Below are positions 11,003 to 15,150 of a stretch of 52,886 bases of DNA, one piece after another. The notes under the pieces were generated by a model. That model made no database searches. It saw nothing but the letters and a program-made list of their open reading frames with translations, and was not told the DNA's origin. Position numbers and translations under genes: made by a program. Position 1 is the stretch's first letter. Each line of letters opens with the position of its first letter. The stretch comes from Planctomycetota bacterium (lineage in GTDB: Bacteria; Planctomycetota; Phycisphaerae; Phycisphaerales; SM1A02): positions 1 to 52,886 of the forward strand of contig JAQCEQ010000020.1 of NCBI GenBank assembly GCA_027618565.1. Direction: 5' to 3'.

Positions 11003-11958
11003 TTCGCTTGGTTTTCGCCACCGGCCAGCCACACCAGCTGCCCACGATGGGCGCCGATGCCGGGGTCGAAGGTCTCGCAGCGCAGGACTCGCGAGGGATC
11101 GACCACGAGGGCTTGATCAATGCGGAGCAAGGGGAACTCTCGCGGGAAAGTGGCACCGATTCCATTCCCCGCCGACGCGAATGCTTCCGCGCCTTCGGGG
11201 ACCAGTATTCGGCGCGGCGCCCCGGGAGAGGTGTTGAAGTCGCCGATGATCAGGTCCGGCACGATCCCCTCCGACTGGATGGCCCTGGCCACGCCTTCAA
11301 TGGCATCCGTCCGAAGGTCTCGCCACGATGAGGGAAGGTCAACCGCGACCAACGTGAACGGCTCCTCGCCGAGGAGTCCGCGGCGCTGAAATTGGAACAG
11401 TGAGGCACGCGCGGGTGGTGCCACCGGGAGGGCGCGCGCCGTGACGCAGGGCCAGCGTGAGCCGACCAGCGTGTTTCCTTGGGCGGCCACCTCGCGCCCG
11501 GCCTCTCGCCACTGCTCGTCCAGCGCCGTCCGCGCCAGCTGTCCGCACTCGGTGACCACGATGATGTCGGCGTCGACGCCGCGCAGCGCCACGGCCCACT
11601 CGTCTGCGGCCCTGCCGGGATGGCGTGCGTTGACATGGGCGATGCTGATCAAGGCCTGGCCGCCGGGAGCCGCCAGCCATGGTCGCCATGCCAGCGCGGT
11701 CGTCCAAGCGATCCAAAGTGCGGCCATCAAGGACAGGAGTCCTGTCATGCGGAACCATCGATGGCGCGGCGCCAACCCCACCAGCGCCGCGAACACGAGC
11801 ACGACCGGTGGACACCACGCCAGCCACTGCACGACGACCGCGCTGGGAACGACCGCTCGGGCGAAGCACGATGTCGCAACCAGCGCCTGTGCCGAGAGCC
11901 CCATGCACACCACCCAACGACGCGACGCCACACGCGCACGCACGGCGCGATCGGTCAT
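10999..11958 (-). CDS. Membrane-anchored endonuclease/exonuclease/phosphatase-fold protein
   Basis: The 319-residue protein starts with three predicted membrane helices (about residues 11-90), followed by a domain of the endonuclease/exonuclease/phosphatase superfamily. Visible family marks are ISIAHVNARH, the catalytic-glutamate region DIIVVTECGQL, IIGDFNTSP (the GDFN motif) and RIDQALV, and a terminal GAHRGQLVWL where related enzymes have the SDH histidine. This layout (helices then EEP domain) is common in bacterial proteins of unknown substrate. The start is the ATG at 11958, whose ATGA overlaps the stop of the upstream gene; the longer frame is antisense noise. Its stop overlaps the prepilin gene by four bases. 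Confidence 0.85.
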   Translation of the reverse strand: MTDRAVRARVASRRWVVCMGLSAQALVATSCFARAVVPSAVVVQWLAWCPPVVLVFAALVGLAPRHRWFRMTGLLSLMAALWIAWTTALAWRPWLAAPGGQALISIAHVNARHPGRAADEWAVALRGVDADIIVVTECGQLARTALDEQWREAGREVAAQGNTLVGSRWPCVTARALPVAPPARASLFQFQRRGLLGEEPFTLVAVDLPSSWRDLRTDAIEGVARAIQSEGIVPDLIIGDFNTSPGAPRRILVPEGAEAFASAGNGIGATFPREFPLLRIDQALVVDPSRVLRCETFDPGIGAHRGQLVWLAGGENQAN

Positions 11959-13016
11959 GGGCGGCTCCCGCACGCCTTGGCCGACTCCTCGGCTAGCTCC
12001 TGGGCGATCGCGGCGACGATGGCGGCGTGGTGTTCCCCGGCACACGCCAGCGTGCCAGTCGTGCCGCGCATCACGCCGTCCGCCCCAAAGTGTGGCGCCA
12101 CGCCAAAGATGTCCGAGGTGGCGGCGCCGGACTCGGACGCCACCAACATGCCTGCGGCGTGGTCCCACGCCTGCTCAGGCGCGGAACCTGGCTTGGCCAC
12201 CCGAAACGCAAGGTCACCGTGACCGAGCGCGACGAGTCCGTACTTACATTGGCTGTCGATGGGAACATGCTTCGTGTCCGGCAGTGCCCGGTCGAGGACG
12301 CGTCGACCCCGCTCCGTTCGGGATCCACCTCGCACGGAACACAGCCAGACTGGCGGGCTGGCACATGGGCCACGCCTCACCCGATGCACCACTCGCCCAA
12401 GGTCGGGTCCGGCGGCACTGCGAAGGTGACATCCGGCACCCAGGGTGGCGGTGAGGAACAGTCCATCGGCAAGCGACGGCAGCGTGTTCCACTCCCTCGG
12501 AGGCGGGGACATCGCGATTCCACCGGCAAGGCATCGATCATTCTCAATGAATCCGAGGCAGGTGGCGTACGCACGGCCCGCCACCCAGCCGCTGGTGCCG
12601 TCGATGGGGTCAAGGCTCCAGTAAGGCGCATCGGAGGAATCGTCGCGTCCCCAGAGCAGGCGCCGCTTCGCCTCTTCGGCAGTGACCGGCGCGAGCCCGG
12701 ACCATGGGGCACACTCCTCCAGCGCCTGGACCACCAACGACCACGCCGCCGAATCGTCACCCAAGCTCGCGGGGGTCTCTTCAGCGATCACGCGGACGGC
12801 GCCGATTCGTTCACGCAGGCCATGGAGGACCAACAACTGCACGACCATGTCCGCCGCCGTGACAGGACTGCCGTCGGACTTGGCGGTCGAAGTCCGGAAC
12901 TCATCCAGCGTCCCCATCCAGGCCGTCGCCCGGAGGGCCACTGCGAGGAGGTCGGCAATCGTCTCCTCGTGCTGGACCCGATGGTTCGATGGGCTGCCGT
13001 GGTGCGCGCTGGTCAA
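11955..13016 (-). CDS. Inositol monophosphatase-family enzyme, probably 3'(2'),5'-bisphosphate nucleotidase-like
   Basis: The product (353 residues) has the metal-binding motifs of the Li+-sensitive phosphatase superfamily: KSDGSPVTAAD, IAEET, LDPIDGTSGW (the DPxDGT signature) and WDHAAG. It is longer than inositol monophosphatase and resembles the HAL2/BPNT type, which removes the 3'-phosphate from PAP. A second enzyme of this superfamily, cysQ, occurs near the sulfate genes at 42-43 kb, so this one may have a different substrate. The start is a TTG at 13016, eight bases after TATCCT, without a Shine-Dalgarno sequence; later in-frame starts are possible (GTG 12938). It is coupled to the downstream EEP gene by ATGA. 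Confidence 0.8.
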   Translation of the reverse strand: MTSAHHGSPSNHRVQHEETIADLLAVALRATAWMGTLDEFRTSTAKSDGSPVTAADMVVQLLVLHGLRERIGAVRVIAEETPASLGDDSAAWSLVVQALEECAPWSGLAPVTAEEAKRRLLWGRDDSSDAPYWSLDPIDGTSGWVAGRAYATCLGFIENDRCLAGGIAMSPPPREWNTLPSLADGLFLTATLGAGCHLRSAAGPDLGRVVHRVRRGPCASPPVWLCSVRGGSRTERGRRVLDRALPDTKHVPIDSQCKYGLVALGHGDLAFRVAKPGSAPEQAWDHAAGMLVASESGAATSDIFGVAPHFGADGVMRGTTGTLACAGEHHAAIVAAIAQELAEESAKACGSRP

Positions 13017-13071
13017 TGGTCGGGAGGATAGATTCGAGGAATCGAGGCAACCTCGGAACCCAGCAAGTAGA

Positions 13072-13088
13072 TTGGCACGTGGTTTGCT
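13072..13088 (+). promoter_or_regulatory. Sigma-54 (-24/-12) promoter upstream of dnaK
   Basis: The sequence TTGGCACGTGGTTTGCT matches the sigma-54 consensus YTGGCACGrNNNTTGCW at every strongly conserved position. GG (13074-13075) and GC (13086-13087) are exactly 12 bases apart. Transcription would begin near 13098, giving a leader of about 40 bases that includes the AAGGA Shine-Dalgarno sequence of dnaK. The element lies in the 121-base gap between divergent genes. Confidence 0.7.
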
Positions 13089-13137
13089 CTAGCACCTGAT
13101 CGCGTTCCCCGTGGGACCGAAAGAAGGAATACACAGC

Positions 13138-15072
<1,935 letters not shown>

Positions 15073-15095: not shown

Positions 15096-15150
15096 CCCGG
15101 ATGATGGTGAGAAGGGGCGCCTGAAGGGCCCCTTCTCACCATCATCCGGG
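15096..15150. terminator. Perfect 23-bp inverted repeat after dnaK, probable terminator or mRNA stabiliser
   Basis: Left arm 15096-15118 (CCCGGATGATGGTGAGAAGG...) and right arm 15128-15150 are exact reverse complements over 23 bases with a 9-base loop. The hairpin starts 23 bases after the dnaK stop. No T-run follows on the plus strand, so it is not a classical intrinsic terminator. It may act as a U-less terminator or protect the dnaK 3' end. Confidence 0.7.

Follow-up and report, generated by a model that had tools for sequence, protein, structure and literature searches.

A candidate sigma-54 heat-shock system with an NtrC-family activator and a phased enhancer at dnaK in Planctomycetota

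Our analysis revealed a sigma-54 promoter element, TTGGCACGTGGTTTGCT, directed toward dnaK in the window, the whole 52,886-nucleotide stretch of planctomycete DNA analysed here. Its conservation at orthologous dnaK loci decides the matter, and at the level of sequence the element is confirmed as real and conserved. Very probably, sigma-54 together with a dedicated activator of the NtrC type drives a regulon of which dnaK is one member, for which we name a candidate activator and a palindrome predicted to be its binding site. A fuller reading, which on balance we favor, is that heat shock in Planctomycetota is governed by sigma-54: a single dedicated activator of the NtrC family, anciently linked to dnaK, and a phased enhancer of the form YGCCAN3TGGCAG would drive dnaK, hsp20, groESL or groEL, clpB or clpC and an M48 protease, replacing RpoH and HrcA. 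In the genus of the window a single activator would be left and the enhancer lost, and chaperone control would be what is left there of the sigma-54 system. Bacterial heat-shock control is usually taught as resting on RpoH or on repressors such as HrcA. Sigma-54 depends on ATP and an activator and stays silent until a signal arrives.

The promoter element at dnaK and its conservation

The first-pass annotation had described an element with the invariant sigma-54 bases and exact GG-to-GC spacing that lies between genes, points to dnaK and leaves a sensible leader, and the sequence agrees on each of these points. The -24 GG (13074-13075) and the -12 GC (13086-13087) are 10 nt apart, and this GG-N10-GC core sits inside TGGCAY-N5-TTGC, the arrangement by which a sigma-54 promoter is recognised. 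The divergent inositol-monophosphatase-family gene has its first possible start near 13016, and the element falls in the gap between there and the dnaK ATG. Promoters of the -24/-12 type start transcription some 12 nt past the -12 GC, which gives the predicted start and leader listed in Table 1. Directly after the dnaK stop codon, two perfect 22-bp arms (about 15096-15117 and 15129-15150) form an inverted repeat; it has no T-run, precedes a ptsI-like gene, and is possibly a terminator or a processing hairpin.

Table 1. Coordinates of the promoter, the neighboring genes and the candidate activator (window positions, except for the last row)
Feature	Position	Strand	Basis and remarks
Sigma-54 (-24/-12) promoter element, TTGGCACGTGGTTTGCT	13072-13088	+	Read directly; toward dnaK
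Predicted transcription start	~13099	+	Inferred, ~12 nt 3' of the -12 GC
Predicted leader, ~39 nt	13099-13137	+	Shine-Dalgarno-like GAAGGA at 13123-13128
dnaK (Hsp70), 644 aa, ATG at 13138	13138-15072	+	Pfam HSP70, E 4e-256; NCBIfam DnaK equivalogs over cut-off
Inositol-monophosphatase-family gene, divergent from dnaK	11955-13016	-	Pfam PF00459, E 6e-27
Sole strong bEBP gene, candidate activator	G000:C54:65910-67295	-	PF00158, E 1e-64

Within the window, this element was the sole exact match to TGGCACGNNNNTTGCW, and the 11 matches with up to two mismatches were at chance level (mean 9.75). Across the 2.26-Mb draft genome, TGGCAYN5TTGC gave 13 matches versus 9 for the reversed control, so a site in a single genome is weak evidence. 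We therefore rely on the comparison of dnaK orthologues from 81 genomes (own, same genus, family and order), of which 76, own included, had usable upstream DNA; the other five were left out, either for a missing dnaK N-terminus (G039, G045, G072) or for a contig end that cuts the upstream region (G012, G025). Relatives that could be named are for the most part MAGs of uncultured Phycisphaerales and other planctomycetes; the contig scan that kept the best 80 of a larger set also has a few titles with Bacteroidia, Limnohabitans or Vicinamibacteraceae, presumably mislabelled bins. TGGCAYN5TTGC was found within 300 nt of the dnaK start codon at 67 of the 76 loci, own included, and the looser TGGCRYN5TTGC at 71, while 100 dinucleotide shuffles gave means of 0.09 and 0.19 loci, respectively, and the reverse strand of the same 76 regions gave no element at all. 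By eye, one-mismatch variants are present at the five loci lacking the TGGCRY form. At two of the 67 loci the element ends just 14-15 nt 5' of the called start codon, which casts doubt on either the start call or the promoter at these loci. Conservation of the -24/-12 element upstream of orthologous dnaK genes, as a check on the site in the window, was thus borne out.

Among the other elements in the window's own genome, two stand before chaperone genes in the right orientation: TGGCACGCCGTTTGC begins 46 nt 5' of the clpB start, and TGGCACGCAGTTTGC precedes an operon in which a receiver-like ORF is joined by groES and groEL. Among the relatives, a TGGCRY element lay upstream of clpB at 6 of 28 parsed loci and upstream of groES at 4 of 28, own included in both cases and with 2 of 30 loci not parsed; for groES, 1500 nt upstream were read, and a promoter may sit farther out. 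These counts do not support the idea that the elements at clpB and groESL are generally conserved. As far as these upstream regions tell, the conserved target of the element in the order is dnaK, and clpB and groESL vary.

The receiver-like ORF at the head of the groESL operon (L100:4131-4556 on the minus strand, corresponding to G000:C11:32130-32555) has counterparts, recognised by eye, before groES at L107, L115, L116, L118, L122, L124, L125, L129 and L203. It retains a VVDLAIP-like motif whose Asp is a possible phospho-acceptor, but, judged by eye, it mostly has neither the acidic pair nor the Lys found in true receivers, and the match to Pfam Response_reg is weak (E 0.006). A feedback role for this protein, as a partner of the activator, is conceivable.

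A phased palindrome and the genes behind it

Upstream of the conserved elements we observed a palindrome. GCCAN3TGGC occurred within 250 nt upstream of the element at 33 of 71 dnaK loci, while any such dyad reached at most 10 loci in ten resampled sets. Matches of at least 9/10 to TGCCAN3TGGCA were present at 62 of the 71 loci (resampled mean 0.7, maximum 4) and absent or below 9/10 at the other nine, and the order-wide consensus is YGCCAN3TGGCAG. The five dnaK loci without a TGGCRY element do carry the palindrome, at most 400 nt from the start codon. Of 61 sites at 55-175 bp upstream, 57 lie at 64-115 bp and four at 139-167 bp, with clusters near 64, 74, 84, 95, 106 and 115 bp. The spacing has a period of 10.65 bp with R 0.74, a value that 0 of 2000 random sets reached, on loci that are related and hence not independent; the significance persists when each distinct position is counted once. 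Such spacing is face-of-helix phasing, which fits a protein that has to touch polymerase.

The genus of the window departs from this pattern. No in-phase palindrome was found upstream of the dnaK, clpB and groESL elements of the window's genome, nor at dnaK of the sister species G001, and the inositol-monophosphatase-family gene occupies the stretch that bears the palindrome in most relatives. In the 800 nt upstream of the sigma-54 promoters of this genus the best dyads scored 7-8 of 10, with the exception of G002, whose 9/10 palindrome at 237 bp lies beyond the usual range, is counted among the 62, and is probably a chance occurrence. Gapped 4-mer pairs common to the seven promoters of the genus were at shuffle level. 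In these dyad and 4-mer comparisons, no enhancer common to the sigma-54 promoters of the genus was found.

A search of 298 genomes of the class for the combined pattern GCCAN3TGGCAG-N65-95-TGGCN7TTGC gave 58 matches in 54 of them, versus three for the reversed pattern; the pattern is narrow, so 54 of 298 is no gauge of regulon frequency. Fifty of the 58 matches head chaperone or M48-protease units. Downstream Pfam assignments comprised 17 Hsp70, 14 Hsp20, 11 Cpn60, 6 Clp ATPases and one M48 peptidase, which we take to be HtpX-like; in the fiftieth unit (L203), an ORF that by eye resembles the receiver-like protein, without a Pfam match, is followed by groES. The remaining eight are not clearly heat-shock genes: L221 has a weak receiver match and no groES in the stretch inspected, and L195, L211, L214, L305, L310, L328 and L330 are without heat-shock assignment. 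At L305 (469-672), a 68-aa ORF with no Pfam match stands behind the palindrome and the sigma-54 element, and is a possible small member of the regulon.

Beyond the order set, 64 further dnaK loci were taken, mostly from the higher-scoring of about 95 genomes of other classes for which a dnaK position was listed. One (L375) was not parsed, which left 63, all from other classes except L346, which belongs to the own-order genome G052. The TGGCRY element was present at 19 of these, the palindrome at 9/10 or better at 31, and both at 13, with resampled means of 0.05 for the element and 0.55 for the palindrome. With a looser, weighted element score of at least 19, the count rose to 43 of 63 versus 1.7 in resampled sets.

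The candidate activator and its linkage to dnaK

The window's genome has an rpoN gene (PF04552, E 8e-52), as sigma-54 control would lead one to look for. Such control had also been said to imply an enhancer-binding activator (bEBP), and here the genome offers just one strong candidate: a PF00158 search gave five matches, of which one was strong (217 bits; Table 1) and the others scored at most 27.5 bits, the weak match on contig C42 being ClpB. The strong bEBP carries a receiver domain (PF00072), an AAA+ domain (PF00158) with a GAYTGA loop and a Fis-type HTH (PF02954), and a GAYTGA or GAFTGA loop is present in 30 aligned orthologues, the features that mark an NtrC-type bEBP. Orthologues scoring at least 522 bits were found in 77 of the 81 genomes, own included, with partial ones in G021 and G041, versus 331 bits for the best paralogue match. 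The HTH of the window genome's protein resembles that of the orthologues despite the missing palindrome, and since the genome has one strong bEBP, activation may do without a specific enhancer. Within the stretch L098 (G000:C54:58000-68922), the bEBP gene has a murC-like gene as its divergent neighbor and two permease-like genes after it, as named from sequence. No histidine kinase adjoining the bEBP was noticed in the flanking stretches inspected, to which no kinase model was applied. Upstream of the 30 orthologues, the stretches available held no TGGCRY element, and auto-regulation of the activator by sigma-54 was dropped for this reason.

The position of the bEBP relative to dnaK was compared in 78 genomes of the phylum with both genes among the matches listed. 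Among these listed matches, the best bEBP match of 31 genomes lay on the dnaK strand and under 1.5 kb upstream of that gene, with 64-868 bp between the two matches; in three more it lay within 6 kb of dnaK, one of them divergent. In the other 44 the best match was not near dnaK (36 on another contig, eight far away on the same contig), although two of these, G380 and G400, have a lower-ranked bEBP match directly upstream of dnaK. In many genomes of the phylum, matches to the bEBP number a dozen or more. Loci at which the adjacency was seen are L407, L412, L413, L415, L416, L418, L421, L425, L426 and L452-L471. In a tree of 99 bEBPs, built with a quick method, midpoint-rooted and with some long branches, a branch with SH-aLRT 98 set the Phycisphaerales proteins, the dnaK-linked proteins and other top-match bEBPs apart from 20 paralogues; of the 29 dnaK-linked proteins included, 28 were best matches and one was the lower-ranked G380 protein. 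Linkage to dnaK is not tied to the enhancer: in 22 dnaK-linked genomes with the upstream region read, the palindrome reached 9/10 in 13 and the element score reached 19 in 14, proportions hardly different from the 31 and 43 of the 63 loci above. Among the papers listed by our literature search, we found no description of a bEBP directly preceding dnaK; an earlier mention may exist in the study of Pirellula bEBPs by Studholme and Dixon (2004).

A profile search for HrcA was negative in all 81 genomes and positive in 7 of 14 controls. For RpoH, no match exceeded the curated cut-off in the 81 genomes, and 2 of 14 controls exceeded it. Matches below the RpoH cut-off in 80 of the 81 genomes indicate that other RpoD-family sigma factors exist, and a second dnaK promoter is therefore possible. 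In Rhodopirellula baltica, according to the part of the study available, heat induces dnaK, groEL, clpB and hsp20, and rpoH, rpoE and rpoN are present with no regulation of them seen (PMC2754498). That no regulation of the sigma genes was seen agrees with control of activator activity, without showing it, and an rpoH gene in this species would count against a phylum-wide absence of RpoH.

Proposed mechanism, competing explanations and known systems

In the mechanism that we propose, sigma-54 RNA polymerase would use the -24/-12 element (13072-13088) to transcribe dnaK, and the promoter would require ATP-dependent activation by an NtrC-type bEBP. The candidate for this role is the protein encoded at G000:C54:65910-67295(-), which shares its tree branch with the dnaK-adjacent bEBPs of other classes. 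In most Phycisphaerales relatives the activator would bind YGCCAN3TGGCAG at sites that mostly lie 64-115 bp upstream of the -24 element, spaced by steps of about 10.65 bp. The same activator would also drive, varying by lineage, hsp20, groESL or groEL, clpB or clpC and the M48 protease. Stress would activate the bEBP, probably through phosphorylation of its receiver, and the promoter in the window may work without a recognisable palindrome since no competing bEBP remains. Taken together, the conservation, the palindrome phasing, the gene set, the synteny, the tree and the lack of HrcA and of an RpoH over the cut-off make sigma-54 with a dedicated activator the most likely explanation.

That the element is a chance match might be argued from the strict pattern, which genome-wide is barely over its control, but 67 of 76 orthologous loci against a shuffle mean of 0.09, none on the reverse strand, and the phased palindrome beside the element in relatives reduce this reading to a negligible probability, and we regard it as ruled out by conservation. 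If the promoter is real, it might still be served by another bEBP, or by several, outside the dnaK-linked family. The dozen or more bEBP matches in many genomes of the phylum and, among the matches listed, the 44 of 78 genomes with the best match away from dnaK would allow this; the single strong bEBP of the window's genome, an orthologue in 77 of 81 genomes, the synteny in 31 of 78 (again among the matches listed) and a branch that excludes 20 paralogues speak against it and make it improbable.

A more substantial alternative, though an unlikely one, is that the sigma-54 start is auxiliary and that basal or heat-induced dnaK expression comes mainly from a promoter of the sigma-70 family; it is partly compatible with our preferred explanation, and the probabilities of the two overlap. 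Essential chaperones often have several promoters, and RpoD-family paralogues exist in these genomes. The hrcA-grpE-dnaK operon of Chlamydia, as described in the available part of PMC8762339, resembles the present case as a dnaK-containing operon with a sigma-54 promoter and has tandem sigma-66 and sigma-54 starts; it differs in having HrcA and the sigma-66 promoter, whereas HrcA was found in 0 of 81 genomes here. Against this alternative, a scan for sigma-70-type sites at 12900-13137 upstream of dnaK found none, a weak test that used the E. coli consensus only.

The sigma-54 regulon with a dedicated activator, as proposed here, shares features with several known systems. Like the sigma-32 (RpoH) regulon, it would coordinate dnaK, groESL, clpB and hsp20, but sigma-32 is a sigma-70-type factor that uses neither an enhancer nor an AAA+ activator, and RpoH over the cut-off was found in 0 of 81 genomes here. 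HrcA/CIRCE likewise controls dnaK and groESL, but HrcA is a repressor and was missing from the same 81 genomes. With NtrC, AtoC and ZraR the candidate activator has in common a receiver, an AAA+ domain and a Fis-type HTH, and AtoC and NtrC are its closest NCBIfam models, yet it falls below the cut-offs (AtoC 391 versus 714, NtrC 377 versus 559, ZraR 335 versus 760) and differs as kin of a dnaK-linked group with no adjacent kinase noticed. Sigma-54 and NifA control groESL3 of Bradyrhizobium, and E. coli has sigma-54 promoters at ibpB and rpoH. These are single chaperone or heat-shock genes under sigma-54, isolated cases in organisms whose main heat-shock control is otherwise, and not a whole regulon. 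COG0542 is the group of ClpA and ClpB.

The first-pass annotation had called sigma-54 control of dnaK unusual; this holds against sigma-32 and HrcA/CIRCE, but within this phylum such control looks common. A survey (PLoS One, 2025) reported predicted sigma-54 promoters enriched at the GroEL, IbpA, GroES, GrpE, DnaJ and DnaK groups in Planctomycetota, mostly in Planctomycetia and less in Phycisphaerae, with protease groups including COG0542 also enriched in Planctomycetia (PMC12316311). As far as its available text goes, the promoter finding is thus anticipated at the level of gene groups. The same text states that bEBP specificity was not available for every organism covered; neither bEBP nor UAS occurs as a word in its main text, and in what it says on chaperone genes no activator, enhancer or dnaK synteny is named (PMC12316311). 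It was the only report on chaperone sigma-54 promoters in Planctomycetota among the papers listed by our literature search, which showed no description of a dedicated sigma-54 heat-shock activator in this phylum.

If true, sigma-54 control by a dedicated activator would be a third architecture for the regulation of core chaperones across much of the phylum, and would account for chaperone regulation in planctomycetes in which neither HrcA nor RpoH over the cut-off was detected. It names one activator gene and one short enhancer that can be tested, and leads on to how protein damage is reported to that activator, by which kinase or which feedback from chaperones.
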